Below are positions 23,456 through 63,450 of a stretch of 64,000 nt of DNA, in pieces (the stretch's first letter is position 1; every line of letters starts with the position of its first letter). Position numbers and translations under genes: made by a program. The DNA comes from Bathymodiolus brooksi (taxonomy: Eukaryota; Mollusca; Bivalvia; Mytilida; Modiolidae), in assembly GCA_963680875.1 (NCBI GenBank), contig OY804585.1, positions 28,634,186 to 28,698,185 of the forward strand, given 5' to 3'. The notes under the pieces are model-generated. The model ran no database searches. It saw nothing but the letters and a program-made list of their open reading frames with translations, and was not told the DNA's origin.

Positions 23456-23460
23456 TGTAT

Positions 23461-27420: not shown

Positions 27421-27756
27421 AGGTCCTGTATTGCTGAGTGGTTGTGGTGGTTACAGTCATTGACAAAGGTCCTGTATTGCTGAGTGGTTGTGGTGATTAA
27501 AGTCATTGACAAAGGTCCTGTATTGCTGAGTGGTTGTGGTGGTTAAAGTCATTGACAAAGGTCCTGTATTGCTGAGCGGTTGTGGTGGTTAAAGTCATTG
27601 ACAAAGGTCCTGTATTGCTGAGCGGTTGTGGTAGTTAAAGTCATTGACAAAGGTCCTGTATTGCTGAGTGGTTGTGGTGGTTAAAGTCATTGACAAAGGT
27701 CCTGTATTGCTGAGTGGTTGTGGTAGTTAAAGTCATTGACAAAGGTCCTGTATTGC
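27418..27756. repeat. 46-bp tandem array, first block (about 7 copies)
   Basis: The unit runs ACAAAGGTCCTGTATTGCTG, AGTGGTTGTGGTGG, TTAAAGTCATTG. It ends abruptly at a 26-bp filler (27757-27782) before the second copy of the segmental duplication. Confidence 0.9.
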
Positions 27757-27782
27757 TAAGTGCCAGGAAACCATAGCAATGG

Positions 27783-29073
27783 TTTTCGTGAATCTTTTAT
27801 TATTATTCATAGGAACATGCATTGTGACCATCGCTGATTTGTGTTTCATAGATTTTTCCGTGTGGTTCTTTGATGCCAGAACCTTTCGCAGACATTTTAA
27901 TTATGTATTTATCAATTGCCACGACACTGTTAATAATCCTTGACTTAGATCCTTAAGATTCTGTGTATTTTTCACTGCTTTCAGAACACAACCATTCCCA
28001 ATCGAAAAAAACTCCACAAAACATTCATTAATCAATTTTAACTGTAAAGTTTTACTATAGAATTGGTTATTAAGGAAACATACATATTCCCTGAACAATT
28101 TACTCAGAAAATTGCTATGCCGTGTAAAAAAAATTCTTTTCCAAGAACAAACCAGATAGTACATTTACATGTCTGACTCATCTTTTTAGAATTCAGAAGA
28201 TTTGTTTTCATTTCCTACCTGTTCACTATGAATCTGGGGGGTCGTCGTGGTCATGATCGTATTGTAGTTGGATTTACAACTACATATGCAATCAGTGCCT
28301 ATCACCACTAATGTTGTTAGTTCAAATCTCTCTCAGGAGAGGTGTACTCAATACAATATTATGTGTATAAAGTATGTCATTGGCATGTGGCAGGTCTGTG
28401 GTTTTCTGCTGGTACACTGGTTTCCTCCACCAATAAAACTGACTGCCACAATCTAACTGAAATATTGTTGAAAGTGGCATTAAACACCACAACCCTAACC
28501 CACTATGAATCTGTAGCCTCCATTGTAAGGGTGTTACCTAGGTAAATTGGTTTGTAGTTCTTTGTCTAGCTATTTTGGATATTTTTGAATATTCCAGAAA
28601 AACTGCATTTTATTTTAGTGGCAATTAAAAATTTGTTGAATATAATATTTGTATTATACAATGCTATGTATATACCATGGTATTGGATCTTACGAATTAA
28701 CGTATTTAAGCCAACACATTTGTACCCGTGAATTTTAAAAACAGTTTTATACATACATACCTGTAGATAAACAGAGATTGTTGTAGGATAAAATTTTGGT
28801 AAGTCCCACCCAAAAAGCAATGTGTTTCTTTGTTATTTTTTTATATAAAAAATGGTGAGTCCCATACACAGAGGATGAGTCAAAGACTCGCCCAGGAAAG
28901 TTGTAAGTTTGATAAACCTTTTTTTCAACTTTTAAGCTTGAGCAGTTGAATGAAGAACAGCAATCAGAGTCACACTCCTTTAATACTCACAATTTTTAAT
29001 AACATTGAGTTATATCTTCATTTCTATTATTGAAAATATGTAATTAGTCTGGAAGGAGAGATCATAGTGAAAC
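27783..29073. repeat. Segmental duplication, copy 2
   Basis: This is the near-identical copy of 26128-27418. The junction on its left is the 26-bp filler that also exists at 14154-14179. On its right it runs into the long 46-bp array. Confidence 0.95.
28235..28505 (+). mobile_element. SINE type B (copied with the segment)
   Basis: Nearly identical to 26580-26850, it was duplicated along with its flanks rather than inserted independently. Confidence 0.8.
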
Positions 29074-32000: not shown

Positions 32001-32580
32001 GAGTGGTTGTGGTGGTTAAAGTCATTGACAAAGGTCCTGTATTGCTGAGTGGTTGTGGTGGTTGAAGTCATTGACAAAGGTCCTGTATTGCTGAGTGGTT
32101 GTGGTGGTTAATGTCATTGACAAAGGTCCTGTATTGCTGGGTGGTTGTGGTGGTTAAAGTCATTGACAAAGGGCCTGTATTGCTGAGTGGTTGTGGTAGT
32201 TAAAGTCATTGACAAAGGTCCTGTATTGCTGAGTGGTTGTGGTGGTTAAAGTCATTGACAAAGGTCCTGTATTGCTGAGTGGTTGTGGTGGTTAAAGTCA
32301 TTGACAAAGGTCCTGTATTGCTGGGTGGTTGTGGTGGTTAAAGTCATTGACAAAGGTCCTGTATTGCTGAGCGGTTGTGGTGGTTAAAGTCATTGACAAA
32401 GGTCCTGTATTGCTGAGTGGTTGTGGTGGTTAAAGTCATTAACAAAGGTCCTGTATTGCTGAGTGGTTGTGGTAGTTAAAGTCATTGACAAAGGTCCTGT
32501 ATCGCTGAGTGGTTGTGGTTAAAGTCATTGACAAAGGTCCTGTATTGCTGAGCGGTTGTGGTAGTTAAAGTCATTGACAA
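29072..32580. repeat. 46-bp tandem array, main block (about 76 copies)
   Basis: Same unit as 27418-27756. Variant units recur in order: a TTAATAAAG insertion near 30255 and again near 30765, a GGTTATGGTGG variant near 30344 and 30850, and a CTGTAGTGCTG variant near 30230 and 30742. This shows a duplicated block of about 11 units (roughly 509 bp). Rare indels occur near 31785 and 31925. Confidence 0.95.
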
Positions 32581-41506: not shown

Positions 41507-44500
41507 CTGACTTGAGTGTGACACTGCATCCTTCAGAGAGTGGTGTGATTTTCACAGGTGTGGTCATTACTAACACTGTTAACACTGTTGACACTGATAC
41601 ACTGTCGTCTGCTCAGTCTGATGCTTTATTAACTAACTCTGCCATAGATAGTGTTAAATCTCAATCCAGTAGTGAGATATCTCTTAGTATGAAATCTCAG
41701 TACAATAGTGATATATCTCAACTAACAGTATCAAATAGTATTATTAATCTTCCCCCATCGTCTGCTGCAGTAGTAGGGGATAGCATATCAGCCAAGCAAT
41801 CAACCAGTCTAATTATTGAAAATGTAATTGTGCCAACCAAAACATTAGTTAGTGAAAATTTGACAGAAAAATCAAAATTAATCTCTGAATTATCTCCCTT
41901 TATTACAAAATCTGAAAATGCATTATCAATATCACCAGTGACTACTAATTCAGAAGTAATAAATTCGGTGATGGCAACAAAGATGGATGAAAGTTCTTCA
42001 CAAGCAAAAACTACCAGTCAAAATTATGTTTCTGACATCTTGTCAACAATAATATTAAAATCGCAGATTGATGTGTCACGACTAACAACTATCAGTCATT
42101 TATCTGTGGGAGTGGATATTGTACCTTCATCAACATCATCATCTGTTGTCATGGCTACCATTGTTCAAACGTCTGCTCTTAACACAGTAAACGTTGTTCA
42201 TCCATCATCTACATTGGAAATTACTGACAGTGTCAAAACCAGTAATATGGTGTCATCAGCTGGTGCTGTGGAAAACTCACAAACTATGGTTACAAATGCT
42301 TATATTACTCACACTGCTTCAGAGTCAAGTTTTCCTAAAACATCTGATCAAAATCTGATGTCTTCCATGATTTCAGGGGAGGTAATCATATCTACTCAAC
42401 AAGAGGAAAATTCACTGCTTAAATCAACCTTTGAACAAGGAATATCAACATCTGAACAAGGAATATCAACATCTGAACAAGCTGTTCAAGTGAGCAATGC
42501 AGTTCAATCAATTACGAGTTCAGCAGGAAGTAGCTATTTCACTGGAGATATTGACAAGACTAGCCTAGTGTTATCAGATTCTACACCACTGTCTACTGTA
42601 CATATTGGTGACAGCTTTGTTCCATCTATTGAACCAACAATGACTCACAAAGTAGCAGAAACAGCAACTAGTGTAGATGCATTTTCAAGCTCTACAACTG
42701 TTAGTGCACAAATGACAGACTCGATCGAAATCATTCCAAAATTAACAACAGTTTCATCATATGCAACTTCATCAGACATGCTTCCAGGAAATGTTTTTCA
42801 GGTTGATTCTAATGCAATATCAAGTGGCAATTTTACACAAAATGTTTTGAGAAGCACTGGGAATAGTATGGAATTAACAAAAACTGTTTCAAATAACATC
42901 CTCTCATTAACATTAGATTCAGGAATGACACCATCGAAGGCTGTTTCTTCATTAACAAGCACAGTTCTTTCTGATATTAACACAAGTAGTCATAGTGTAG
43001 AATTAAGTTTTTCACAAGACATGGCATCAATTGGTTCTTCATTTCTGAGCACTACACCACAATTGAATATCAGTGATTTTGAAACACGTTTGTTATCCGT
43101 CAGTTCTGACTTCGGAACAGTCACATCTAAAATAACCAATAGCTTTTCAAGTATGCCTGCGTCCACAAGTCATAATTTAGGACAAACAATATTACCGACA
43201 TCTTTCGTAATTACAACTCCACAAATGAATGCGAGTGCTTTTGAAACACAAACATTATATACTACCAGTTTGGAAATCTCATCAAATGCCTTAGTCAACC
43301 AATCAAACACACCCGACATAATGACAAGCTTTGTTATAACCACTCCTCAACTCAACATAAGTGTATTTGACACACAGTCTCTATTAAGTACAAGGACAGA
43401 TAACTCTACACAAATGTTTTCATTGAGCCAATCCAGTACACCTTTTATTCAACCACAGTCAAGTTTACAGACAGAAACAAACAGTTCAGAATTTTCTTTA
43501 AATTTTTCAAGTATTAATTTAACGTCACAGCTACCAGTACTTACAAGTTCAGAAAGTAGGTCAATGTATGATATTTCACCTACATCAGTTTTAGGTATTA
43601 GTTCAGTAAAACTATCATCAGAGATATCGAATAGTACCATTTCTGCTACACAATCAATAACTCCTGATTTTAGTAGTTTGTTTATCAGTTTAAATGCAAC
43701 ACCTTCAATATTTTCCAGTTTTGAAACTCAAAATTTGTCAGACATTTTATTAACCCCTAGTGTTTCTTTTGAAACAATATCCACCAATCAGAACCAATTC
43801 AGTTCAGAAGTTAATTTAACCTTGACCTCTGTTATCTTTGAATCCACTGTAAATATTAGCAATGCAAAAATAGTATCGTCTGTTGTTTCTATAGCATCGA
43901 CCCCTGACCTCAATTTTTCATCATTTTCAATTCAAGAAACACCTATGTCAATCATGAATTATTCAAATAGTTTAGAAGTTAGTAACTTAACCTCTGACCT
44001 TTATATGACCTCTGACATTTTACCTATCATATCAAGTTCTGAAATGTTAATCTTGACTGCTACCTCTGATCTTGTAATATCCTCATTAGATTTCCTAAAT
44101 TTTTCAACAACAGATATTCCTACTCAATCTACATTAACCTTTAACCTTACAACAGAGCCAATCACATCTTTATATCAACAAACATCAATTATCAGTGGCC
44201 TTTTTTCAAATTCGACGTTGACATCAGACATTTTACCAACATTAAATGTGTCTATGAGTGATATGAAGTCAGAACTCTCAACAGTGTTTCAAAATGGAAA
44301 TGAATCGGTTTCTGGAAATATTTCCATGGTAACATTTTTACCCAATGTATCATTGGATTCTGCATCTTTAATGTCTGATTTTGTTTCAACTGCAGCCTCA
44401 ACTTTACCAATCATAATACAACCGACAATGACAGTTAATTCAACACTAGATATGTCATCTGCTGCCATGGAAACACTTTTTGATATGACTGTCGTTACAA

Positions 44501-47500
44501 CACCATCAATAGTCATTTTTTCATCCGAGGAAATGCAACCTTCATTCACTGAAACCTTAAATGAAACTATTACCTTTAGAACAACAAGTTTGATGTCATC
44601 ACAAGTAGTGTCGTCTGCTTCAGTGGAAACACCCTTGAATATGTCTCTGGTTATGACGCCATCAACATATTTTTTTAAATCATCGCAGGGAGTGTCGTCT
44701 GTTGTCATGGAAACATCATTCAACATGACAACAGTCATAATGGAACTGACCACATCTGTAAGTACTTCCAAAGTAATTTCTACTGATGTGGTGGATGTGA
44801 TCAATTCAACATATTTATTGATAGAGCCGTCGTCTGTTTTGACATCACGCTCAGTGGATACAACAATGGAGTCAGCATCAACATTTTCCACAATAGATTT
44901 GCTCAAAAATGCAAGTGAATCAATCACATCCTTGCCTTCAATTGAAATATCATCATCTTCAATGGATGCTAATTTATCACAAAGTGTCATTAAATCTGAA
45001 CTTATTTCTTCCTCTTCAACTATTATAGCTGTGCCGATAAATAGCAGTGAATCTACTGTTGCATTTTCAAAAATTGAACCATTAACTTCTGATGTTTCAA
45101 CTAACATTGTGTCAGCAATAATTTCAACCACTGTTGGAATTCTAACAGAGAGTCCCTCCACGTCACAGTCCACGATACTAGACTTACCCACAAGCACTGG
45201 TGTGTCATTTACGTCACGGATACTAACATCTGATCTGATTACCTCGTCAATTGTTGAAATGTCTAGTTCTGTTTCTATGACAACAGCTGTGCCTACCTCC
45301 ATGCCGACAGCAACTAGTATTCCAACAACCGAACCAACAACAACTACTCCGACGACCACACCGACAACAACTACTCCCACGACAACGCCGAAGCCGACAA
45401 CACCAGATGTTGTGTCAACATACTGGGTAAAGACAGGTTAGTCAGAATATAAACAGAAGCAAACTAGAAAATTAAAAATATTAAATTCCTTAAAAATCTA
45501 AACTTGAAAAAGGTTGAATTTACGATAATACATAAGCATCGAAAGTGTAGTTTTATGTCAAGGAAGCAACAACACAGAGGTCTCCAATGTAATATTGATA
45601 AAAACCATTTATTTTACTATAATTTTTATCTATAGCTTCCATTAAAACTTGAGTCAAAGATGGTTGTTTTCCTTTTGAAAATTTCAACAATATCAATCTT
45701 TATTTATTATGCTGTAGAAAAAATCCCAGAATGCATTTGAATGTTGTATATAATATTAGTTAGTTGAATGTTTTATCATAAATGTAGTATTTGAGATGTG
45801 CATGATCCATTTTATCCCTGAATTCACATGTACATTCCCAGCTTAAAAAGAATATATAAGAATAATTTAGTATTTAATATTAACATAAAGAAAAGACAGT
45901 TTAAACAGCATGCATTCATTTATATGAATATGCATGAGGATTGATTAATAATTTATTTAAATGTCATTTATTGTAACATCCTCATTTCTCAGAGTTTCTC
46001 TGTCCACTTATGTCAAGTAGAACCCCTAACAAAATTACCTGTAGATTCTTGGGTTATAAAACAACATAATGATTTGATTGGATGCATCTCCAACAAAGAA
46101 GAACCAATCAGTAATGCATACAAGTCTGTATGTACATATGTATATCAGTATGTACACATTTTAGAAGGCAATCAAATTTTAAGGGTTAGGGTTATGGTGA
46201 TTAATGATTAACAATATTTCAGTTATATCGTGGCGGTCAGCTTATTGGTGGAGGAAACCACCGGCCTGCAGCAAGACACTGATAAACTTTATCACAAAAT
46301 GTTGTATCGAGTACACCCTGCCTGAGCGAGATTCAAACTCACAACGTTAGTGGTGATAGGCACTGATTGCATTGGTGGTTGTAAATCCAACTACCGTACG
46401 ATCACGACCACGTGCATCACTCCAGTGGCCCTGTGAATTCCAATCTAACATGGACACATATGGACATTAAGGAATTTGACAAATGAGGATTGTGTACTAA
46501 TTTAATTATACATTTTTGAGAAATTTAGTATTTTTATCCCTCATATTAAAACAGGTTAAAAAAAAATACCAGTAATAATCTTATCTCTGAAGATATTGTT
46601 ATATCAAGTCAAGGAGTAATTTACTCAAATTAATATATTTTATTTAATTATTCAAGTTACTTGTAATGGAAAACCTAAGTATCCTATTCATTTTAGAAAG
46701 TGGAGAAAAGTAGAGTGGTCTCCCTTTGTATCTTTCAAAGACCAATTACCTGACATAGTAAAGGGAGCTAACTTACTTTTGTTTTTCTCATCAAGTTAAT
46801 TTTAAAGGATTGATTTTTAAACTTTAGCTTAATTTTAGGTTAATTTGGAAATACAGGTAAGCAAATACATAAAATGAGAATAGTTAGTCCTCATTAGAAA
46901 ATACAATTATATTTATGTTTTTATATGACATCATTATATTTTCTACTGGTTTCCAGGAATTTTAGTACCAAAAACAGAGGATGTGACTACAATGACATTT
47001 AAAGTTAAGATGGAACAAGGTCTTGCTAAGGCATTTAACCTGGCTTTTCAGACACAAGAACAAGCGGGGAGACGGAGGAGAAAACGTTATGTGAAAATGG
47101 GAAATGCTGGTATTAATGTAAGGACTGTTTGATTGATTATAAATGGTTGCTATATGCTACTTTCAGACATGATCACCTTGAGTGAGGAAGATCATGGACT
47201 TCATCCTTTCTGCCGTCAAGCCTAAATACTATGAAATTGATATTTGCTGACTTTGCACTTATTAAGTACACATCATTAAGGAGAAAGAACAGAAACTGGC
47301 TGGTTAACAAACTGGATAATTTGTAGAGACATGTCTACTGCATACTGTTGAAAAATTGTTCACTTAGCTAAAAAAAAAAACCCAAACAAAAACAAATACT
47401 AACTCAACTATATAAGGAGTGGGAGGAGGATACAAGTCAAGCACACCATTGTTAAGCTTTGTGTAAACTTACAAGAAGATAGTTGGTAATATTATTGACT

Positions 47501-50500
47501 ATCAATCAACTTGTTAAAAAAAACTAAGGTTCTCCTCCCTCAGGCATATGTGACCTTAGCCGATTTTGGCTATCCTATTTAGGCCCTTTAGTTTTATTGC
47601 TCCCAAAACTTTAAATTATTTGGCTTTCCAATCTTTTGATTTTAAGCTTCACCCGATGATGGTTATTCCAATCTTTTGATTTTAAGCGTCACCTGATGAA
47701 GGTTATTCCAATCTTTTGATTTTAAGCGTCACCTGATGAAGGTTATTCCAATCTTTCGATTTTAAGCGTCACCTGATGAAGGTTATTCCAATCTTTCGAT
47801 TTTAAGCGTCACCTGATGAAGGTTATTCCAATCTTTCGATTTTAAACGTCACCTGATGAAGGTTATTCCAATCTTTCGATTTTAAGCGTCACCTGATGAA
47901 GGTTATTCCAATCTTTCGATTTTAAGCATCACCTGATGAAGGTTATTCCAGAAATATGTGGTGCACACTAAATTTGATATCAACATTTGTATTGTAAGTA
48001 AGTTATTTTTAACCCTAAGTGAGCAACTTTTTTTTAAGATATTTTATGGTAAGAACAAGTTACTTGTTGAAAAGATGATGATCTGTTTTGTGCTAGGTCA
48101 ACATGCCAATTTGGATTTTTATAGTGCCAGCTGATTGTGTTCAACATGTTGCCCCACTCAGATACATTATCCTGACTCCGAGCCAACCAGTCTTTCTTCT
48201 TCCTCCTTATTTCTGCAGGCTTAGCAGAGATGCAGCCAATATTGTATAGTCATCGGTTTGATTCTATAGGGGATGGAACCCATCGTCTACCACATTTGAG
48301 GCCTAGACGAGCAAATTAACCATTTGACCGTTGAGGCAGTTTTTATTTTAATAGGTTAAGCTGCAATATATACATTTGTGCATTGTAAAGGTAGCTAGAC
48401 AATTTTATATACACCAAACATGTCACAGTACTCTTGAAAATAAAAGAATAATTAAATCTTAAATATAAAAACAATTAATCAATCTGACAAGATTTGAAAA
48501 TGTTAAACAAGTGAAAAATGATAAATACTTAAGAGCTCTATAGTGTAACATCTGGTAGGATTGCTCTAAGACATTGATTTTGACATGTAAAATTATAGAT
48601 GAGGTAATCATTTTGTCAATGGTGGAATTATTTCTTCATTTTTCTACACGTTTAATAAAAATATTTACAACTTACTATTTAAAGAGATAAAAATTTGTAA
48701 TTTTAATAATAATTATACAAAAAAAATTGAGTAAATTTTTTGTTACCAAGAAGGAAAAAGAATCTTATTTGTTTAGCTGTATAATTGATATTTTCTTAAT
48801 GTTTAAATTCATAGTTAGAGAAAAAATGTTGACTTAATAAACTTTTTGTTAAAAATAAAATTTGAAGAATTTTTTTTTTTAGCACGTTATTTTGAATTTT
48901 TTGCTTTTGAAACAGAATGTGGTATTTGCTCAGAACATCTATTGATGGAATGTCATGAGTTAGCTCCCTTTGTTAAGGTTGCATCAATTTTAATGTACAC
49001 TGTATTTCAATGGTTAGATTTTTATAGAACCTCATTTTAGCAATATGGAAAATTATATTGAAATTTAAAAAAAATTAAATCAAGTAATTAAAATGTAGAT
49101 ATCAAATTTAGTACGTACGACGCATTTCAGGGATAACCTTCATCAGGTACGCTCAAAATCGAAAGATTGGAAAACCAAATAATTTAAAGCTTTGGAAGAA
49201 ATAAAACAAAAGAGCCCAAACAGGATAGCTAAAATAGGCTACGGTCACCTATACCTGAGGGAGGAGAACCTTAGTTTGATTAATAATTACATTATTTAGG
49301 AACTGTAAATTTCAGTAATAAATATATCTAATGAACTATGTCAGTGCCGAAGCATTGACTAGTGGGCGAATGATACCGTCGGGGACTAAAAACAACCTTC
49401 TTTTTAATATTTTGGTCTATCCAATGCACTAAATTGATATGATATCCTAGACTTTTATCATAGTTAAAAAGTTCTCCAAATAATATTTATGTAATAATGT
49501 TGTTGGAAACTGGCAATTTATGTAAATATTTTTCGTATCTGATCATATTTCCTGACCCTCTAGGGGAGGGAAATATGTAATCAGAAAAGGAAATATTTTT
49601 GCATATTACCAGATGATGTCAACATTGTTGTTCTTATTATACCGAATGTCGTAGTTTCTATACGTCACAGTTAAAGGTCAAAGGTTAAGTAATATTACCG
49701 AGCTACCCAGGTAATCTGTCGCTTTTACTATCATTCTATAAAGAAGTTCTTAAAATATATATCAAATATCATCAGTACAAATAATGCTATAAAAACATAC
49801 ATAAAATATAATTGATAATATCAACAAAATCGTCAAAAAAAGATTCATCATTGTGTGTACATCATCTGATGAATGCTAGTACTTATATAAGATTTTTGAA
49901 TGATCTTTTGATATTTAACAGTAATATAACGCTACCTTACACATTAATATTTTATTACATTGATTGATCAGAGTTAGATTTAGATCTACCTGAAGTATTA
50001 TAACCTGTAATTAGCAGGTAAATTGTTCAAATCCGTATATTTGTCTGTTGTGAAGTTCTAAATATAAACCTAATGTCTTCTTAATTTGAAAAGGGTGGGT
50101 TCTGTTAAAAAAATATTCAATAATTTGAATGAATTAAGGAAGCTGAATTTGGCGTAAACTGTAAAAGATGTATTATTTGTGTTGTTTCAATTTTCTCTAT
50201 CTTCATTAGGGTAGGGGTCAGGGAAAGGTGTTTTACCCCACTTTCAACAATATTTCAGTTATATCGTGGCAGTCAGTTTTATTGGTGAAGAAACCGGAGT
50301 ATCCGGAGAAAACCACAGACCTGTCGCAAGTCACTGACAAACTTTAACGTCATAACAGCCAATTTTTTGGCACAATTTAAACACGGTAGATAATTGATTT
50401 CTATGTAGAATATTTCTATATCACATATCAAAATCGTAAAAAAAAAAAATCATCAGCATGAAAAGGTAAAAATGAAAATTTCCATCCCAATTCAATTTTC

Positions 50501-53500
50501 ATTAGTGAACATAGAAACAATACATATTTATGCCGTATATCGTTAACAACAACAATACATGATTATGTAAACAAAGCCATATAAACATAGATACATTGGA
50601 ATATGGGATATTACATTTATTTTCTGTGGAAGAATTTAAATTCATGGATCCCAATTTTCTTTGATTGCTCATAAAAAACATATTCGTTGATTCTTAAATT
50701 TGTGGACTTGGAATTCCCAAAACGCTAACGTATGCATAGGCTGGTTTTTTAGTGGCTAGGGTTGGGGCTATATGGTGTTTAATGCCACTTTCAACCATAT
50801 TTCAGTTATATTATGGCGGTCAGTTTTATTGATGGAGGAAACCAGAGTAACCGGAGAAAACCACTGACCTGCCAGAAGTCACTGACAAGCTTTATCACAT
50901 AATGTAGTATCGAGTACAACTTGCCATGAGCGAGATTCGAACTCACAATAGGCACTGATTGCATAGATAGTTGTAAGTTCAACTACCATAGGACCATGAC
51001 CACGACGGCCTCTTTTCCGAATTAAAGCAGTAGCTTTTACAACATCTACATACTAGTATTCATAAAAAGGCTTTTACCACAATTATTCATTATAACTGTA
51101 ACAATTTGAAACAGTGTTAACCAAGTAAACCACTTTACCCTGCAGTCATGTGATTTTAAGTACAGTAAAATCTGTCTAAACCAAACCCTGAATAAACCAG
51201 AATAATGTATAAACCAAACTTTAACTAAAGTCCCAATGTAGGAAATCTTTGTTAATTTAACCTGCATAATACAAACACCAGTCTGTTCCGAACACAAAAG
51301 TTTGTCCAAAGGAGGTTTGGTTTAGAGAGGTTTAAACTGTACTAATAAAGGAATCAAATAAATTTCAGTGTTATTTAGTCAAGGACCTAAAAGAAAAGCT
51401 TTTCTGGTACCTGATTCATGTAGAGCCAACAGTAAGAAGAAGTAACAGTATAAGACGTGAAAACAATCAGTAAAATTTGGCAGTTTTTTTTACTTTTGGA
51501 CTTTAATACATTGCAGGATAAAAACTATGCATACAAGACAGGCCAAGACCATGTACACATATATTGTTTATATAGGCAGTGGTTCTATTCTACTGTAGAC
51601 TGAAAATAACTAGGTTGGCCAGAAATACAGGATGCACAAAATAAACTGCATCCAATCTTAGTGACAATCTTCTATAGAATCACCAACTGTTAATAATTGA
51701 AAGGTATTTTTTCCCTTTATTATCCCCTCGCCAACGAAGTTGCGAAGGGATATAGTAACGCTACCTTCCGTCCTTCCGTAACATCCTTGTGAACACTCTA
51801 AAATCAACATCCTTCAATGGATTTTGACCAAACTTGGTACATACTTAGTCCTTAAGATAAGCTGGAACCCTATGGATTTTCATGGTCAAAGGTCAAGGTC
51901 ACTGAGTCAAATTTTTATCATGTAACATCCTTGTGAACACTAGAATCAACATCCTTCAATGGATTTTGACCAAACTTGGTACATATTTAGTCCTTAAGAG
52001 AATCTGGAACCCTATTGATTTTCAAGGTCACCGGGTCAAATTGTTAGGCGAGGGGATACGCCACGCTTTGCATTGTCCTTGTTGAATTCTTTGCAGGTAA
52101 CCGAGGTAACTAGGACAACAGGAACCACACATGTATCAGTAGGGTACACAGTAGACAAAGATGGCAGCCCTCTTTCAGCCACGGAGGCTGTTACAGCAGC
52201 ATCATCTATTAGTGATTTAATAGTATTATCTCCCTTTATCTTTACAGGTAACCGAGGTAACTAGGACAGCAGGAACTACAGATGTATCAGTAGGATACAC
52301 AGTAGACAAAGATGGCAGCCCTCTTTCAGCCACGGAGGCTGTTACAGCAGCAGCATCTATTAGTGATCAGATGATGGCCATCAAGCTTGGATATGAAGTC
52401 AGTTCAAAGGCAGAAAGTAAGACTAGTTACAACAGAGATTGGTCAACAGGGGTTACCTTGGTCACAGTTAGGTCAATATACGTATACAGAGCCAATAAGG
52501 AAATGCATTCAGTTTTTATTAACTAAATATGGGATACATGAATTTGCATACAAATTGATAAAAAAAATCTTTTATTGAAAGACAAATAAAATGCAGTGAT
52601 TCCAAACTGACCAATTGAAAATGAGCATTATCCATAGTGTTTTGTTTCCTTGATTTTATGCACTGGATTAAATAACAATTTACAATTCTTTCAGTGTTTC
52701 AGCTAGACTTTGAAATCTTCAGGACAATTGCCAGTTTTATCAAAATTTCTTCAGGACATTCTTTAATAATTAAACTAATTTGCATAAAGCTCTTCAGGAC
52801 AATTTGAGAAATAGGTGCCTAGCTGAATAAATTTTTTTATGAGATTATTATGAAAAGAAAGTTAAGCAGTGATGGTTAACAATTCCACCAATATCAACAA
52901 AACAAACAATCACCTCTCATCTTAACTCACTGAACACAAAAAAGGGGACCATGATAGATGACTTTGGAAATCCAGATCCTGACTTGGGACAGCCACAAAA
53001 ATGTGTGTGGGTTAAACAGTTAATGGGATTTCAACCCTCCCCTCTTGATAACTGGATATCCAAAGGCAATACATGTAATAAACAATGTACCTTTTATGTA
53101 TCATGCTGTATTCCTGCACACTTACACACACACATTACCTGGAGAAGAAAGATTACATAATAAAACCATACCTGTATTTGGTTTTAAGAAGGATTCCATA
53201 CAGTATCAGTAATTTAGAAATAGATTTACCGACATGAAATTGTATCTCTATACAGAGCTCAAAATACAGTCAAACATGTCCTTTGTGACCTACAATGGGA
53301 ACATTAAAATAGGATCACATAAGAAAGATGTTCACTTAATACAGGTTTAATTAATATGCAAAGCACTGAAGGGAAATTAAAATAAAGGTCACATGATACA
53401 AGTTATTGCTTAATAGAGGTGGTCACTAAAGCAGATCTGACTGTAATCCAATATAAGACGTGTCTTCAATAAAATAAAATAATCAGAATGAAATCGGATA

Positions 53501-56500
53501 ATTTCTGCAGTATTGATGTTCTGCATCTACTAACACATGGGTGTGACAAGATAAATTATTCATAGAAATCTTTCCTTTATTCAAGCTTATGTGACAACCC
53601 AGTCTACAGTTTCTGAAGATCCTTCATTATTGTGGATTGTTGGGGCTGTTGTCGGTCCTGTAGCGTTTGTTGTCATAGTGATTTGGATTGTTGTGTGTAT
53701 AATATACTGTAAGAATAAAAGGGTACCAAACACCAAGACCCTGGACTCGGAGGGTGATCCACCACTCCTCAGAATGACATCACCAGCAGGAGAAGATGGG
53801 GTAATCATAGGATTTATTTTATAATATCTAATGTTTCAAACATATCACTTCAGCCCTGAGCTTCAACTTGTTTTATTGGTGATGTAATGGTTAGCATGCT
53901 CGCCTTCGAGTGTGATAGATCATGGGTTCAAGCCCCGATCTGGTCAAACCAAAGACTATAAAATTGGTATTTGTTGCTTCTCCGCTAAGCACGTAAAAGA
54001 GCAAAAACTGGCGACATGTCTATCCGCAGACTGTTGTGTCAGTGAGCTAGCACTATAAAAATCCAACTAAGCATGTTGATCTAGTACAAAGCGGACCTCA
54101 TCATCATTTCATTCAAAATTATCATGTTCTTGCCTTGATATAACTAAAAAGTTGCTGAGTTGGCATTAAACAACAATCACTCACTGTTTTGTTAATTCAT
54201 AAAGGGAGATACGTCACTACTTTTGTTTACACTTTTGATGTAAATTGATGTATTTAATGCTATTGTCTTATTTATTGAACCGTTCAATATTTTGAGTGTT
54301 TTTATACCAGCAACGTTAAACAAACCAAATCAGGAGGTATGCACAACTAATATTTTGATGCTGTACACTTCTGTACTGCAACATTTCATTATTATAAAAT
54401 GATCAATTTAAATATTATTAAATTATAGTGTTAGACTTTCTGTGTTAAGGATTTTATGGAGGGAAATTTATACTATGTATTTTTCAAAAATCTTTCCTTG
54501 GTCTAGACAGTGTCAATATATTGTATATATTGTGTTTTGAAAATCAAGGGAAGCAATCACTTTTTATACTCCTGTTCCTGGTTGATTTGATTTTGGTGTT
54601 TAATTCCACATTCAGCAATATTTCAGCTATATCATCGCGACCAGTTTTAGTGGTGGAAGAAGCCGGAGAGAACCACCGACCATGGGCAAGCAACTGGTAA
54701 ACTTTATCATTTGCGGCTGCGAGTCGAGTGTATTTTTTTTTGGAAATTACAAAGCCGGGCGTGAACCCATGCCGTATTGGTGATAAACTTGTATGAGTTT
54801 TTAGGTAATCCAACTACCTAACTCATTCAGCCCCCCTGTTCCTGGTTGAAGATATATAACTTTAATGCATGAATTGTGTTGATTTTATCTGATTACTTTG
54901 AGGAAGATGTAATATATAAAATAACGGCAGTTATGAAGGTCAAGACAGATATTATTGCTAATATACCAGCGAGTCTGATAGGACGAGCTGTTATACTAGT
55001 AATAATGTATGTCAAAACCTTCAAAAGTGACGTTATTGTGTATATCGGTTACATCAAAATGTATTTGATGCCACACTGACTGATTATTTTCAATATCATT
55101 CAGTATGATGATGTATCTTTGTAAAATCAGAGGAAGAAATGCATAAATTACTATTAATACATAAACTTACTATATATTAAATAGAAAAAAAGACTATTTT
55201 CAAATAAAAATTGAGAATTAATTTATCCTGATCTTTGTAATAATTACCGTAATGTACAGGTGGAAGAAGGACAACAGTACGATAAGGTCAGTGAACAGGA
55301 AGCCAATGGAACGTCTGCTTACAAAGTGACGTCACCAAAGAAACAGAAATACAAACTCAACCAAAATGAAGATCTCTATTCTGAAGTTAAGAAACATAAA
55401 CGTCCAGTGTCCAGTAAATCATCTGACAAAACAAGGTATAAATATAAAAAAAGTTAAAGAAATGAGATTAATGTAGTGAAATAGATTCTGAAAATAAAAA
55501 TAAAACAAAAATTGGACAAATTCATGTTCCAAGAAATGAAGGGTTTATTCTGATCATCACATTTCCTCTTTTCGAGTAAAACATGTTGAAAGAAAATTTG
55601 TCAAACTAGATCCAAAAAGCTAGAAAATGATGGCATATGGGTTTTCCATTTTCTGTTTTTTGCAACAATGAGTACTTTCATCTCTGTGTTCCATAATTTT
55701 TTCTTGTGTTCAAAGTTTTTGTACCAAAACTGAGGTAAAATTTCATATTCTTACCACAGTAATATTTATGTAGGTTAGTTTTCTTTGTAAGCAATACTTA
55801 AGTCTCTCTATTTTGTTTAAAGATTTAATAATATAATAGATTTTACGAAAAAGGATTTTGCAAAATGCATCTGAAACTCAAACAAAGGAAGAGAAGTTTC
55901 ATCACTGTTCTTTTGAATAAACGGTAGAGAAAACCGAAGGGGCAATCAAGAATGGGCAATCCAGAGACACTGGCATTATTCGGCACACAAGACACAGGAA
56001 GAAAACAAACAAAAAAACACAACATAACACAGAAATCTAAAATAATGAGCAACACAGACTCCACTAAAAAAACGGGGATGAACCTAATTATTTGTTATGG
56101 GTAAGCAGTTCTGCTTAAATTAAGCATTGTTTTGTTTCCATGTACAGATTTATTAAGTTTTTTGTTACCTTTATTTTTATATTTCTAGGTCAGATGGTGA
56201 GTCTTTGAATGTCATATCAGAAGATGGAGATAAAACTAAGAGAAAGAAACAGAAACAAAAAAGAAGTAGTCAGGCTGGTAATATTATCATTATTACTGCT
56301 GTAAATTAAAAGAATACTAATTTTAGTTGTTGAAAAGAAAGATAACTTTGAATATTGTTGTTATTAACAGTTATGTCCCCTTGATACAGCATTAGAGCAT
56401 TAGGAACCGTCGTGATCGTGATCGTATGATAGTTAGATTTACAACTACCTGTGCAATCAATGCCTATCACTGCTAATGTTGTGAGTTTGAATCCTGCTCG

Positions 56501-59500
56501 ATACAACATTATGTGATAAAGTTTGTCATAACTTGTGACAGGTCGGTGGTTTTCTCTGGGTACTCCGGTTTCCTCCACCAATAAAACTGACTCCCACGAT
56601 ATAACTGAAATATTGTTGAAAGTGGCATTAAAAACCATAAACCAACCTGTAAATTAAAAGGATGATGATTTTAGTTGTTGAAAAGAAAAATAACTTTGGA
56701 TAATATTGCTATTAAGAGTTATGTCCCCTTGATACAGCATTATAATGTGTTTGTACATACACTTACAGTCCAACTTTGTTGTGTCGAGGGTCAAAAGGAC
56801 TGTGTATTTTAGTTCTAATTATGGAGTATTTGAGTGTAAATTAAGCCAACAATAACTATGACATATAGCTATAACTTATAACATATTCTAACTTCTAGAT
56901 AACTTCATCGGTTAGGTCAGGACCCAGGTGGCTCAATGAGTTAGGTAGATGGATTACCTAGCAACTCATACAAGCCTATCACCAATACAGCGTGGGTTCA
57001 CGCCCGGCTTTGTAAATCACAAAAAAGGGTACACTCGACTCGCAGCCTCATGTGATACAGTTTACCAGTTGCTTGCCCATGGTCGGTGGTTCTCGCCAGG
57101 TATTCCGGCTTCTTCCACCACAAAAACTGGTTGCCATGATGTAGCTGATATATTGCTGAAAGTGGCATTAAACACCAAAAATCAAAATCAAATAAAATCA
57201 TCGGTTAGGTCAAGCCAAAGACTATAAAATTGATATTTGTTGCTTTGCCTCTAAACACACAGTATTAAGGTGTAAGAGGAAAGACCGCATGGCCCAGAAG
57301 TATGATAATGTGTCTGAGTGGGACGACTTGTCTACCCATGGCCCAGAAGTATGATAATGTGTCTGAGTGGGACGACTTGTCTACCCATGGCCCAGAAGTA
57401 TGATAATGTGTCTGAGTGGGACGACTTGTCTACCCATGAACTGTTGTTTCAGTGAGCTATCACTATAAAGATCCAACTGTGTTTGTTGGTCTAGTACAAA
57501 GTGGAGATCATCATCATTTCATTGAATGTAACTTATTCTCACCATGATAAAGATGAACAATTGGTCATTTGGTGTTAAACAACAATTACCCACTCACTAC
57601 AACTTCAAATCATCCAATAAAAGGACACATAACAAAGCTTGACTGAAATGTTAAATATTTCAGAGTTTTATCTAGTTAACATTTTTATTATTTCTGTACA
57701 GTTGATGAGGTTTTTATTATAATTAACATTTTTTATAATCTCTCTATAGTTGCTGGTTCAGAAGATCCAGATGTTTATTATAATTATTATTTTTTATAAT
57801 CTCTCTATAGTTGCTGGTTTAGGAGATCCAGATGTTTATTATAATTAACATTTTTTATAATCTCTCTATAGTTGCTGGTTTAGAAGATCCAGATGTTTAT
57901 TATAGTTAACATTTTTTATAATCTCTCTATAGTTGCTGGTTTAGAAGATCCAGATGTTTATTATAGTTAACATTTTTTATAATCTCTCTATAGTTGCTGG
58001 TTTAGAAGATCCAGATGTTTATTATAATTAACATTTTTTATAATATAGTTGCTGGTTTAGAAGATCCAGATGTTTATTATAATTAACAATTTTATAATCT
58101 CTCTATAGTTGCTGGTTTAGAAGATCCAGATGTTTATTATAGTTAACATTTTTTATAATCTCTCTATAGTTGCTGGTTTAGAAGATCCAGATGTTTATTA
58201 TAATTAACATTTTTTATAATCTCTCTATAGTTGCTGGTTTAGAAGATCCAGATGTTTATTATAATTAACATTTTTTATAATCTCTCTATAGTTGCTGGTT
58301 TAGAAGATCCAGATGTTTATTATAATTAACATTTTTTATAATCTCTCTATAGTTGCTGGTTTAGAAGATCCAGATGTTTATTATAATTAACATTTTTTAT
58401 AATCTCTCTATAGTTGCTGGTTTAGAAGATCCAGATGTTTATTATAATTAACATTTTTTATAATCTCTCTATAGTTGCTGGTTTAGAGGATCCAGATGTT
58501 TATTATAATTAACATTTTTTATAATCTCTCTATAGTTGCTGGTTTAGAAGATCCAGATGTTTATTATAGTTAACATTTTTTATAATCTCTCTATAGTTGC
58601 TGGTTTAGAAGATCCAGATGTTTATTATACTTAACATTTTTTATAATCTCTCTATAGTTGCTGGTTTAGAAGATCCAGATGTTTATTATAATTAACATTT
58701 TTTATAATCTCTCTATAGTTGCTGGTTTAGAAGATCCAGATGTTTATTATAATTAACATTTTTTATAATCTCTCTATAGTTGCTGGTTTAGAAGATCCAG
58801 ATGTTTATTATAATTAACATTTTTTATTATCTCTCTATAGTTGCTGGTTTAGAAGATCCAGATGTTTATTATAATTAACATTTTTTATAATCTCTCTATA
58901 GTTGCTGGTTTAGAAGATCCAGATGTTTATTATAGTTAACATTTTTTATAATCTCTCTATAGTTGCTGGTTTAGAAGATCCAGATGTTTATTATAATTAA
59001 CATTTTTTATAATATAGTTGCTGGTTTAGAAGATCCAGATGTTTATTATAATTAACAATTTTATAATCTCTCTATAGTTGCTGGTTTAGAAGATCCAGAT
59101 GTTTATTATAGTTAACATTTTTTATAATCTCTCTATAGTTGCTGGTTTAGAAGATCCAGATGTTTATTATAGTTAACATTTTTTATAATCTCTCTATAGT
59201 TGCTGGTTTAGAAGATCCAGATGTTTATTATAATTAACATTTTTTATAATCTCTCTATAGTTGCTGGTTTAGAAGATCCAGATGTTTATTATAATTAACA
59301 TTTTTTATAATCTCTCTATAGTTGCTGGCTTAGAAGATCCAGATGTTTATTATAATTAACATTTTTTATAATCTCTCTATAGTTGCTGGTTTAGAAGATC
59401 CAGATGTTTATTATAATTAACATTTTTTATAATCTCTCTATAGTTGCTGGTTTAGAAGATCCAGATGTTTATTATAATTAACATTTTTTATAATCTCTCT

Positions 59501-62484
59501 ATAGTTGCTGGTTTAGAGGATCCAGATGTTTATTATAATTAACATTTTTTATAATCTCTCTATAGTTGCTGGTTTAGAAGATCCAGATGTTTATTATAGT
59601 TAACATTTTTTATAATCTCTCTATAGTTGCTGGTTTAGAAGATCCAGATGTTTATTATACTTAACATTTTTTATAATCTCTCTATAGTTGCTGGTTTAGA
59701 AGATCCAGATGTTTATTATAATTAACATTTTTTATAATCTCTCTATAGTTGCTGGTTTAGAAGATCCAGATGTTTATTATAATTAACATTTTTTATAATC
59801 TCTCTATAGTTGCTGGTTTAGAAGATCCAGATGTTTATTATAATTAACATTTTTTATAATCTCTCTATAGTTGCTGGTTTAGAAGATCCAGATGTTTATT
59901 ATAGTTAACATTTTTTATAATCTCTCTATAGTTGCTGGTTTAGAAGATCCAGATGTTTATTATAATTAACATTTTTTATAATCTCTCTATAGTTGCTGGT
60001 TTAGAAGATCCAGATGTTTATTATAATTAACATTTTTTTATAATCTCTCTATAGTTGCTGGTTTAGAAGATCCAGATGTTTATTATAATTAACATTTTTT
60101 ATAATCTCTCTATAGTTGCTGGTTTAGAAGATCCAGATGTTTATTATAATTAACATTTTTTATAATCTCTCTATAGTTGCTGGTTTAGAAGATCCAGATG
60201 TTTATTATAGTTAACATTTTTTATAATCTCTCTATAGTTGCTGGTTTAGAAGATCCAGATGTTTACTATAGTTAACATTTTTTATAATATAGTTGCTGGT
60301 TTAGAAGATCCAGATGTTTATTATAGTTAACATTTTTTATAATCTCTCTATAGTTGCTGGTTTAGAAGATCCAGATGTTTATTATAATTAACATTTTTTA
60401 TAATCTCTCTATAGTTGCTGGTTTAGAAGATCCAGATGTTTATTATAATTAACATTTTTTATAATCTCTCTATAGTTGCTGGTTTAGAAGATCCAGATGT
60501 TTATTATAATTAACATTTTTTATAATCTCTCTATAGTTGCTGGTTTAGAAGATCCAGATGTTTATTATAATTAACATTTTTTTATAATCTCTCTATAGTT
60601 GCTGGTTTAGAAGATCCAGATGTTTATTATAATTAACATTTTTTATAATCTCTCTATAGTTGCTGGTTTAGAAGATCCAGATGTTTATTATAATTAACAT
60701 TTTTTATAATCTCTCTATAGTTGCTGGTTTAGAAGATCCAGATGTTTATTATAGTTAACATTTTTTATAATCTCTCTATAGTTGCTGGTTTAGAAGATCC
60801 AGATGTTTACTATAGTTAACATTTTTTATAATATAGTTGCTGGTTTAGAAGATCCAGATGTTTATTATAGTTAACATTTTTTATAATCTCTCTATAGTTG
60901 CTGGTTTAGAAGATCCAGATGTTTATTATAATTAACATATTTTATAATCTCTCTATAGTTGCTGGTTTAGAAGATCCAGATGTTTATTATAATTAACATT
61001 TTTTATAATCTCTCTATAGTTGCTGGTTTAGAAGATCCAGATGTTTATTATAATTAACATTTTTTATAATCTCTCTATAGTTGCTGGTTTAGAAGATCCA
61101 GATGTTTATTATAATTAACATTTTTTATAATCTCTCTATAGTTGCTGGTTTAGAAGATCCAGATGTTTATTATAGTTAACATTTTTTATAATCTCTCTAT
61201 AGTTGCTGGTTTAGAAGATCCAGATGTTTATTATAGTTAACATTTTTTATAATATAGTTGCTGGTTTAGAAGATCCAGATGTTTATTATAGTTAACATTT
61301 TTTATAATCTCTCTATAGTTGCTGGTTTAGAAGATCCAGATGTTTATTATAATTAACATTTTTTATAATCTCTCTATAGTTGCTGGTTTAGAAGATCCAG
61401 ATGTTTATTATAGTTAACATTTTTTATAATCTCTCTATAGTTGCTGGTTTAGAAGATCCAGATGTTTATTATAATTAACATTTTTTATAATCTCTCTATA
61501 GTTGCTGGTTTAGAAGATCCAGATGTTTATTATAGTTAACATTTTTTATAATCTCTCTATAGTTGCTGGTTTAGAAGATCCAGATGTTTATTATAGTTAA
61601 CATTTTTTATAATATAGTTGCTGGTTTAGAAGATCCAGATGTTTATTATAGTTAACATTTTTTATAATCTCTCTATAGTTGCTGGTTTAGAAGATCCAGA
61701 TGTTTATTATAATTAACATTTTTTATAATATAGTTGCTGGTTTAGAAGATCCAGATGTTTATTATAATTAACATTTTTTATAATCTCTCTATAGTTGCTG
61801 GTTTAGAAGATCCAGATGTTTATTATAATTAACATTTTTTATAATCTCTCTATAGTTGCTGGCTTAGAAGATCCAGATGTTTATTATAATTAACATTTTT
61901 TATAATCTCTCTATAGTTGCTGGTTTAGAAGATCCAGATCTTTATTATAATTAACATTTTTTATAATCTCTCTATAGTTGCTGGTTTAGGAGATCCAGAT
62001 GTTTATTATAATTAACATTTTTTATAATCTCTCTATAGTTGCTGGTTTAGAAGATCCAGATGTTTATTATAGTTAACATTTTTTATAATATAGTTGCTGG
62101 TTTAGAAGATCCAGATGTTTATTATAGTTAACATTTTTTATAATCTCTCTATAGTTGCTGGTTTAGAAGATCCAGATGTTTATTATAATTAACATTTTTT
62201 ATAATCTCTCTATAGTTGCTGGTTTAGAAGATCCAGATGTTTATTATAATTAACATTTTTTATAATCTCTCTATAGTTGCTGGTTTAGAAGATCCAGATG
62301 TTTATTATAATTAACATTTTTTATAATCTCTCTATAGTTGCTGGTTTAGAAGATCCAGATGTTTATTATAGTTAACATTTTTTATAATCTCGCTACAGTT
62401 GCTGGTTTAGAAGATCCGGAGGAAGACGCTCCAAAGCTGATAAAAACAACACATCTACAGAGTTATGAACCACAAGTAAAGTAG
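41507..62484 (+). CDS. KIAA1549: KIAA1549-like type I membrane protein (5' end missing)
   Basis: Exons: 41507-45436, 46957-47117, 52248-52416, 53586-53800, 55260-55435, 56189-56277 and 62399 to TAG at 62482-62484. All phases agree, giving about 1608 residues. The 3.93-kb exon encodes a Ser/Thr-rich ectodomain with many N-glycosylation sequons. It has degenerate internal repeats around [12 protein letters not shown] and METxFNMT, and ends in a Thr/Pro mucin-type stretch. Next come [18 protein letters not shown], the polybasic RRRRKRYVK (possible furin-type site) and [18 protein letters not shown]...LGYEV. Then one TM segment ([19 protein letters not shown]) and a Lys-rich cytoplasmic tail. This order matches the KIAA1549/KIAA1549L family (UPF0606), whose function is poorly known. 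The initiating exon, entered in phase 1, was not found. A GTAAAG donor at 62476 means the gene may run past the window instead of ending at TAG. Confidence 0.75.
45437..46956. other. Intron with SINE type B (minus, about 46184-46425)
   Basis: The donor GTTAGT at 45437 and acceptor TTTCCAG at 46956 bound it. The SINE reads on the minus strand from CGTGGTCGTGATCGTACGG to the tail near TTAATCACCATAACCC. The rest is AT-rich. Confidence 0.65.
47190..47350 (+). mobile_element. SINE type C remnant
   Basis: It retains ATTAAGGAGAAAGAACAGAA, CTGGCTGGTTAAC and GACATGTCTACTGCA of the type C body. The head and tail are lost. Confidence 0.4.
47519..47990 (+). mobile_element. Family D element with internal 40-bp array
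   Basis: The 5' part (AAGGTTCTCCTCCCTCAGGC, GGCTATCCTATTTAGGCCC, AATTATTTGGCTTTCC) is colinear with the reverse complement of 49093-49290. At 47641-47950 the segment GGTTATTCCAATCTTTCG + ATTTTAAGCGTCACCTGATGAA is repeated about 8 times. The element then ends normally with CCAGAAATATGTGGTGCAC and TTTGATATCAACATT. The array grew inside the element. Confidence 0.8.
48100..48310 (-). mobile_element. SINE type C, degenerate
   Basis: On the minus strand it has a TAGACGATGGGTTCCATCCCC box-B-like region and AAGGAGGAAGAAGAAAGAC, then CACTATAAAAATCCAAATTG. It is decayed. Confidence 0.5.
49093..49290 (-). mobile_element. Family D element
   Basis: It is a single-copy form (no internal array): AAGGTTCTCCTCCCTCAGG, AAATTATTTGGTTTTCC, GAGCGTACCTGATGAAGG, TACGTACTAAATTTGATATC. 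It is useful as the unexpanded reference for the array at 47641. Confidence 0.75.
49291..50210. other. Intronic AT-rich DNA
   Basis: This is part of the intron between 47117 and 52248. It holds a short inverted pair around 49540-49600 (TATTTCCTGACCCTCT with GGGAGGGAAATATG). No other feature was seen. Confidence 0.4.
50213..51013 (-). mobile_element. Two SINE type B copies on the minus strand
   Basis: A 5'-truncated copy lies at about 50213-50350 and a fuller one at 50757-51013. Both show CCACTTTCAA...ATATTTCAGTTATAT and the ACCGGAGAAAACCAC core region read in reverse. Between them the DNA is AT-rich. Confidence 0.7.
51163..51339. mobile_element. Pogo-type MITE, TA target
   Basis: The ends CAGTAAAATCTGTCTAAACC and GGTTTAGAGAGGTTTAAACTG (shown in part) form an imperfect inverted pair, flanked by TA at 51161-51162 and 51340-51341. 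Confidence 0.6.
51723..52056. mobile_element. TIR element with TCCCCTCGCC ends
   Basis: The left end TCCCCTCGCCAACGAAG and right end GTTAGGCGAGGGGA are flanked by TA at 51721-51722 and 52057-52058. The interior is a direct repeat of about 125 bp (TAACATCCTTGTGAACACT...GGAACCCTAT). It is a widespread invertebrate element type. It sits only 40 bp upstream of the duplicated acceptor at 52097. Confidence 0.7.
52097..52214 (+). pseudogene. Partial tandem copy of KIAA1549-like exon 3
   Basis: After TTTGCAG it reads [40 protein letters not shown] and then leaves the exon. The real exon at 52248 continues [11 protein letters not shown]. The copy keeps its acceptor but has no donor. Without splicing it runs into the next copy's acceptor and stops at TAG in a shifted frame. 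The offset is 151 bp, and a few substitutions (TTGTTH versus TAGTTD) separate the copies. Confidence 0.8.
52417..53585. other. Intron with pogo-type MITE at 53267-53443
   Basis: The MITE ends CAGTCAAACATG and CAGATCTGACTG are flanked by TA (53265-53266, 53444-53445). It belongs to the same broad group as 38102-38779. The rest of the intron shows no further feature. Confidence 0.55.
53877..54188 (+). mobile_element. SINE type C
   Basis: It has a head GGTGATGTAATGGTTAGCAT, box B GGGTTCAAGCCCCG, body AGTGAGCTAGCACTATAAAA and a tail TTGGCATTAAACAACAATCA. Confidence 0.8.
54592..54835 (-). mobile_element. SINE type A
   Basis: On the minus strand: GGCTGAATGAGTTAGGTAG, GGTTCACGCCCGGC box-B-like region, core CTTCTTCCACCACTAAAACT and tail AATGTGGAATTAAACACC. 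Confidence 0.75.
55915..56110 (-). mobile_element. Dispersed repeat, family F
   Basis: It contains GAAGGGGCAATCAAGAATGG, CACAAGACACAGGAAGAA and AGCAACACAGACTCCAC, ending near GGGTAAGCAGT. It is the intronic copy used above to place the 53-bp array. Confidence 0.65.
56300..56746 (+). repeat. SINE type B flanked by about 95-bp direct repeats
   Basis: The SINE spans about 56404-56643 (GTCGTGATCGTGATCGTATG head, AAAGTGGCATTAAAAACC tail). The flanks 56303-56397 and 56646-56746 are diverged direct copies (GATTTTAGTTGTTGAAAAG..., TATGTCCCCTTGATACAGC). That is much longer than an integration duplication. Confidence 0.7.
56925..57600 (+). mobile_element. SINE type A followed by SINE type C with a 3 x 49-bp repeat
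   Basis: Type A spans about 56925-57185 (CCAGGTGGCTCAATGAG head, AAAGTGGCATTAAACACC tail). Type C spans 57200-57600. Inside it, 57292-57438 is three exact 49-bp units (GCCCAGAAGTATGATAATG...GACTTGTCTACCCATG). The two SINEs are adjacent in tandem. Confidence 0.75.
57719..62398. repeat. 61-bp tandem array of 3' splice sites, about 75 copies
   Basis: Each unit has the order ATTTTTTATAATCTCTCTATAG, then TTGCTGGTTTAGAAGATCC, then AGATGTTTATTATAATTAAC (each shown in part). The first segment is a pyrimidine-containing acceptor. The middle 19 bases equal the start of the last recognised KIAA1549-like exon at 62399. A 55-bp variant lacks the six bases TCTCTC. Sequence variants recur about 970-1030 bp apart (58081/59050; 58621/59651) and about 543 bp apart (60261/60804), showing block duplication. 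The final acceptor differs (CGCTACAG) from the array units (CTCTATAG). Confidence 0.95.
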
Positions 62485-63450
62485 TCACATGATGTTTTTC
62501 ATATTTCTAATTTATTAAATTATGACTTTTTTAAAATTGTATTATTTTTATACTATATAGACTTATAACATAGATTTGTGTAATATTTCATTAATTTCTG
62601 GGTTGTACAAATAAATGGGTTTTGTTTTACTTTTTATGGTTGCGGTTTTTTTTACTGGCTTGAGGTGATGCATTTGTTGATAGGTAATTTTATATTTTAA
62701 TTTTGTGTAACCTAATTTTGTGCATTTTTCATTCAAGGTAACAATTACATATGTTACACTCGTATACAGGACCCTTTCAATATTTTTATTTGATATAGAT
62801 TTCATTTCAACTGTCACCACTGCCATAATTCATCGAATGAAATGAATCTTTATTAAATTATTAGATTTCTTAATAAAAATAAAAAAAGGGGGGAGAATAT
62901 GAAGATAGAATATAAAATCTCTTGAGTAAGAGAAGGCTCAGTTGCTGAGAAGAGAATGATTTTTTGTTAAATAAAATTATTTTACCCAATAATTTAAAAA
63001 AATTGTGTGAATTAATGTATTAGTTTGGTCGTTTTTTGAGAAAATTGATGAGTATTGAATAATGAAGCTATATCTGATCGATAGACTGAGTAATTTATGA
63101 GTATTGAATATTGAGGACAATATCTGCTCAATAGACTTAGTTGATTTGATAGACATTGAAGACATAGTGAAACTTTCAATTTAGTCAATGCAAAAAACAA
63201 AAAGAAATTGAAGTTTTTCTTCAACATCAGTAAAAAATTCTAAAGTGGATGGTGTGAAAATACTGTCGAAGCAGAATTAGATTGTGTTATAATTACATTC
63301 TTGAAGCATGGGAATAATTTAGAAGTAGTGGAAAAAAATATATGATGAAAGAAACTTTATAATGTACCGTGCTAAATAATGTTGACATGAGACTGAAGTG
63401 ATCGATCTTGTGAGGTTTGAACAATGTGTTAGATTAATGATGATAATGTA
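62485..63450. other. AT-rich DNA after the last recognised exon
   Basis: This is either the 3' UTR and flank (an AATAAA occurs near 62609) or, if the GTAAAG donor at 62476 is used, the next intron. No element or exon was recognised. Confidence 0.4.

Follow-up and report, generated by a model that had tools for sequence, protein, structure and literature searches.

A minisatellite repeating the acceptor and the start of the predicted terminal exon of a KIAA1549-like gene

The window (the whole stretch of DNA that was analysed, 64,000 nucleotides) contains a predicted KIAA1549-like gene whose last intron ends in a tandem array of 61-bp units, detected by TRF at 57713-62417 with 77.9 copies and 96% matches in one assembly and one haplotype. 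The array is plainly beyond chance; it repeats the predicted last 3' splice site of the gene together with the beginning of the predicted terminal exon. We consider it probably a long acceptor-side 'mirage' minisatellite situated in repeat-rich DNA, mostly tolerated and perhaps leaky. The main features are listed in Table 1.

Table 1. Predicted features of the host gene and of the splice-site repeats in the window
Feature	Position	Strand	Basis
Large Ser/Thr-rich (mucin-like) ectodomain exon	41507..45436	+	1335-aa open frame, donor CAG/GTTAGT; 5' limit inferred
Exon with RRRRKR stretch, start of KIAA1549 match	46957..47117	+	In-frame chain, profile match
Second acceptor duplication, 151-bp unit, 1.9 copies	52088..52367	+	TRF, 92.9% boundary-spanning match
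Exon 3' of second duplication	52248..52416	+	In-frame chain
Exon with transmembrane-like segment	53586..53800	+	In-frame chain; partly inside PF12877 match
Cytoplasmic exon	55260..55435	+	In-frame chain
Exon before array, phase-1 end	56189..56277	+	In-frame chain; donor CTG/GTAATA at 56278
Outer unit copy, diverged and truncated, CAG acceptor, exon-like start 57702	about 57674..57719	+	Local alignment
61-bp minisatellite, 77 acceptor-like sites (TTAAC, pyrimidine tract, TATAG, exon start)	57713..62398	+	TRF, unit tables
Predicted terminal coding exon, 28-residue tail then TAG	62399..62484	+	Frame, GC contrast; without homology support
AATAAA poly(A)-signal-like hexamer	62610..62615	+	Sequence

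Units and extent of the array

When the array is split at the exon start TTGCTGG, 78 such starts are obtained, comprising 77 array sites and the predicted true site at 62399. Successive sites are 61 bp apart in 65 of the 77 cases, 55 bp in eight, 60 bp in two and 62 bp in two. The 55-bp units lack CTCTCT in the pyrimidine tract, which is thereby 6 bp shorter at these eight sites, and their branch-like A lies 17 nt from the last G of the acceptor instead of 23 nt. Each of the 77 array acceptors has TATAG at its end, the site at 62399 being CTACAG, and a branch-point-like TTAAC is found upstream of the acceptor in every unit except the first, where it reads TTATT. The exon part of the unit corresponds to the first 19 bases of the terminal exon and is an exact copy of them in 70 of the 77 units, as counted from the unit table. 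The earlier note had described about 75 repeats of the acceptor and terminal-exon start; the repetition is real, with 77 sites and TATAG in each, and its statement that every unit carries the same 19 exon bases applies to these 70 units, the remaining seven being inexact.

Read from each site to the next, the 77 units (a copy number taken from a single assembly) can be sorted into 16 exact types, the most frequent with 33 units and the second with 19; 12 types (A, B, E, G, H, I, J, K, L, M, O and P) are present once or twice. The final intronic stretch of the array is the predicted true acceptor CTACAG. At the opposite end, the outer copy aligns to the unit with a score of 39; the maximum in 300 mononucleotide shuffles of the flank was 28, so that none of them reached this value.

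Two other interpretations of the unit were discarded. A dispersed element was set aside for lack of other copies in the 64-kb window at E 0.01 and of matches to one exact 23-base pattern in viral contigs. RNA structure was dropped, as 25 of 200 shuffles fold as well as three units (z -1.31); known RNA families gave no match in the window at Rfam gathering scores. The same predicted intron contains a separate 49-bp array (57288-57438; 3.1 copies at 100%, TRF).

Host gene and predicted terminal exon

By its sequence, the predicted host gene is a KIAA1549 homologue. The 298-residue part of the predicted protein used as a query matched the PF12877 (KIAA1549) profile with E 1.3e-22 and 80.4 bits (cut-off 24), over residues 8-155 and profile positions 146-291 of 676; five other Pfam families matched more weakly, all under their own cut-offs. 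The match ends at profile position 291, and the predicted tail of the gene is short and has no match. Exon boundaries are predictions made from sequence without cDNA. The six exons from 46957 to 62484 (Table 1), which follow the 1335-codon Ser/Thr-rich open frame, join into a continuous reading frame whose only stop is at its end. This in-frame chain bears out the earlier claims that the exon preceding the array ends at 56277 in phase 1, that 62399, with its CAG acceptor, is the predicted start of the last exon and gives the longer tail, of 28 residues, and, at the level of sequence, that the exons at 56189 and 62399 belong to one gene. The donor at 56278 is within the top 3.5% of GT sites of the window according to an approximate donor matrix. 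For the Ser/Thr-rich exon, no Pfam match reached E 1. The RRRRKR stretch in the following exon is presumably furin-like.

A protein search for relatives of the predicted protein returned 1148 candidates, none at E 0.001; 135 stretches found in viral contigs yielded no confirmed relative, and no PDB entry reached E 0.001. These results say little, because the collections searched consist mainly of microbial or viral sequences or solved structures. As no protein relative was found, the case for the terminal exon is made by its frame, composition and signals. The GC content is 0.41 in the exon and 0.19 past its stop. Outside the array there are 3245 AG sites; a phase-1 frame of at least 28 codons begins at 639 of them, and four of these 639 have a similar GC contrast, with cut-offs for frame and contrast that were set after the exon had been seen. 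Besides the AATAAA hexamer, ATTAAA is present at 62514, and neither hexamer occurs within the array. Unlike the array sites, 62399 would yield a short terminal exon. Most mature mRNA would use this acceptor, since it combines a short terminal exon beside a poly(A) signal with the only intact CAG unit.

Acceptor choice and alternative explanations

Joining 56277 in phase to an array site leads to an early stop in all 77 units, and in 76 of them the stop follows a tail of 12 residues. In 73 cases, 11 common residues are followed by N, S or T and the stop (commonest form 46, ending in YYS 25, ending in YYT two), and three tails differ by one other residue (two with LGD, one with DLYY). The first array unit gives a tail of 16 residues, four more than the others. 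The short tail ending in N, S or T before a constant stop, as proposed in the earlier note, thus describes 73 units, with the stop kept in 76, and fails for the first. By the approximate matrix, the top donor-like site in the array scores -5.33, whereas the donors of the gene itself range from 0.39 to 4.02, so a transcript spliced to an array site would carry the remaining array as 3' UTR to the poly(A) site. Use of array sites would therefore yield a nearly invariant 12-residue tail and a repeat-containing 3' UTR. Stop codons located in the last exon are not expected to elicit junction-dependent decay, and hence such decay is not expected here. The very long 3' UTR might nevertheless lower the stability of the array-spliced RNA.

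The acceptor and donor matrices are approximate and untrained. On a uniform background, 68 array acceptors score 2.08, eight 2.13 and one 4.20, and site 62399 scores 1.24, so all 77 stand above it. On the composition of the window, the same classes score -0.28 (68 sites), -3.13 (eight) and 1.85 (one), and 76 of the 77 stand below 62399 (0.83). Both the array and 62399 are outranked by several further AG sites in this intron (the best, at 57100, scores 5.93, compared with 0.83 for 62399), and the matrix thus discriminates poorly. Because the order of the sites changes with the background and other AG sites score higher, sequence does not settle which acceptor wins. Acceptor 62399 has gained a C at -3, but carries a G inside its pyrimidine tract. 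The scoring of every unit, suggested in the earlier note as a check, thus gave largely opposite orders on the two backgrounds, and for the note's suggestion that CAG outcompetes TAG the sequence is ambiguous. Array sites are transcribed ahead of 62399, and this earlier transcription, together with scores about equal to that of the true site, makes broad use of array sites possible.

The array could be a splice-timing or decoy field, whose upstream acceptors draw off some transcripts, which then carry the short tail, in a proportion set by copy number. The 77 in-phase acceptors with their near-identical outcome, the lack of a good donor, the array scores resembling that of the true site and the human ABCA7 repeat, a donor-repeating VNTR that shifts splicing by length (PMC5954066, in the passages cited), are all in line with such a role. 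Nevertheless, it seems unlikely: the array has no sign of constraint, although the power to see any is lacking, eight of the 77 sites have the shortened tract with 17 nt between branch-like A and final G, and the amphioxus cases were judged non-interfering in the passages cited (PMC3087553, PMC3902484). The earlier note had set decoy or timing field against tolerated satellite; the satellite is better supported, the decoy having gained no positive evidence here. A stronger form, in which the units take a large share of transcripts and their number sets the ratio of two C-termini, appears less likely still; nearly all units would then give one 12-residue tail with a repeat-filled 3' UTR, as opposed to another C-terminus of a mucin-like membrane protein. 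Distinctly improbable, in our opinion, is that exon 62399 is unused, or that the gene does not end there and may instead finish by reading past 56277, leaving the array as an intergenic or intronic minisatellite. The tail has no homologue in the protein, viral-contig and PDB searches, exon 56189-56277 stays open for a few codons beyond 56277, and several intron AG sites score higher (57100 above all); against this stand the open 28-residue tail given by the phase-1 join, the fall in GC after its stop, the rarity of this combination of frame and contrast (four of the 3245 AG sites outside the array, with post hoc cut-offs) and the AATAAA downstream. An array length produced by the assembly, through inflation of a shorter array or joining of two haplotypes, is highly improbable. 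Multi-unit blocks do recur, and a mirage apparently misassembled in a draft genome is on record (PMC3087553, in part); on the other hand, 12 of the 16 unit types are present once or twice, in an order unlike simple inflation, and a much shorter array would still be the same structure.

Origin, known parallels and surroundings

The tolerated minisatellite that we favor would have started as a short tandem duplication across the last intron-exon boundary of the KIAA1549-like gene and would have grown later to 77 copies by repeated duplication of one unit and of several, with its sites tolerated or sparingly used. The same series of unit types reappear along the array (FFGCHFF 17 units apart, FKFFCLC nine units apart), which points to multi-unit duplication, as expected of tandem growth. 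The recurrence is irregular, the match by lag peaking at 0.36 (lag 16) compared with 0.25 expected, and the recurring blocks are an indirect sign of growth in length. Units at the edge, namely the first unit (type A) and the outer copy, are more diverged. That CAG stands at both outer edges and TAG at each of the 77 sites between them suggests amplification of a TAG unit. Constraint within the array was also considered and set aside for lack of power: the 77 units contain 14 distinct substitutions, including two at the true site, too few to reveal sparing (the chance that none of 14 falls in AG is 0.63, or about 0.67 for the 12 left without the true-site ones, and that none of 14 falls in TAG is 0.49). 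TTAAC and the stop codon overlapping it are both altered in the first unit.

Tandem repeats across an intron-exon boundary have been published as amphioxus 'mirages' (PMC3087553). The passages cited here name Adh3 and the globins BflGb6 and BflGb9 as mirage genes (PMC3087553) and report like repeats in TnC and PGBD5 (PMC3902484), those of PGBD5 being imperfect and lying over splice sites (PMC3902484). Units are 10-72 bp long in Adh3 (PMC3087553, PMC3902484) and 150-160 bp in BflGb6, where the 3' end of an intron and the 5' part of the next exon are duplicated in six and three units in two haplotypes (PMC3087553). According to the same passages, Adh3 data and globin RT-PCR suggested regular splicing without interference (PMC3087553), and Adh and TnC are listed among genes in which such repeats produce no aberrant mRNA (PMC3902484). 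As in those mirages, the present repeats span the intron-exon boundary, multiply the splice signal and have edge units that escape homogenisation: the unit includes 19 exon bases and the intron end (the boundary being predicted), and the signal TATAG is carried by 77 of 77. The array shares the acceptor-side form of BflGb6 and differs from it in the number and length of its units (77, each about 61 bp), in preceding a terminal exon and in belonging to another gene family.

The VNTR in intron 18 of human ABCA7, whose 25-bp unit is present in about 12 to about 427 copies, is reported to affect splicing through its length, and one unit can be retained via the repeated donor (PMC5954066, in part). 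Like the present array, it is long, lies in an intron and contains a splice site from an exon edge; unlike it, ABCA7 repeats a donor GT and not an acceptor with exon sequence, concerns an internal exon, and has a measured length effect. IFI6 (6-16, G1P3) reportedly carries a minisatellite of 12-bp units with multiple splice donors. Many splice sites are there supplied from the donor side, and in the present array from the acceptor side. In human paralogues, tandem repeats alter gene structure and sometimes activate cryptic splice sites (PMC2812944, in part). In the potato RdRp gene, tandem duplication created new splice-site choices and led to intron gain (PMC4974935, in part); the present array, by contrast, should not form a new internal exon, since the approximate matrix detects no good donor in it.

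Among the matches listed in open-licence literature, neither a similar mollusc case nor an acceptor-side array of such size was present. Splice-site repeats are already known from lancelets and humans, and the array adds a long example to them; its interest lies in how large it is, in the terminal exon that it precedes and in the nearly uniform short tail. Nearly all units encode the same peptide and stop, so copy number could vary with little change in the product, which would make the array a clean system for position effects in acceptor choice. It offers a natural test of how the spliceosome chooses among many near-identical acceptors: by taking the first one made, the one closest to the poly(A) site, or one with CAG in preference to TAG. 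A mollusc source, at which the look of the dispersed repeats in the window hints, would place mirages in an animal group other than lancelets.

Tandem repeats cover 22.1% of the window, or 15.9% when the main array is left out. For the 13 boundaries of the predicted gene (the first acceptor being placed by inference), a boundary-spanning second copy in the window was found for two of seven acceptors and none of six donors. The other acceptor concerned is that at 52248, where the duplication takes in the acceptor together with most of its exon, giving exon-like starts at 52097 (upstream copy) and 52248 (in-frame). The use of the upstream copy would lead to an in-frame stop, and the approximate matrix scores it below 52248 (4.53 and 8.12 on the uniform background, 4.12 and 6.74 on window composition). 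With 15.9% of repeats and two of seven acceptors duplicated, a repeat over an acceptor is unremarkable and needs no special cause.

Other repeats and exon-like frames were noted in the window. A direct duplication of about 1.64 kb (26124-27762 and 27778-29417; 99.1% identity) carries a 46-bp minisatellite, which forms a second array of about 76 copies at 29072-32580 (TRF). An upstream intron of the gene has a 40-bp minisatellite (47626-47950, TRF), and an apparent inverted fragment of its unit was seen by eye some 1.2 kb beyond (about 49128-49185). Exon-like frames match FAM221 (10476-10748, + strand; PF14753, E 3.1e-24) and a von Willebrand A domain (2883-3413, - strand; PF00092, E 2.1e-07). 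Finally, a 30-bp array of about 49 copies (23460-24917, TRF), to which a 239-bp period also fits, has open frames 85 to 123 codons long on each of the two strands.
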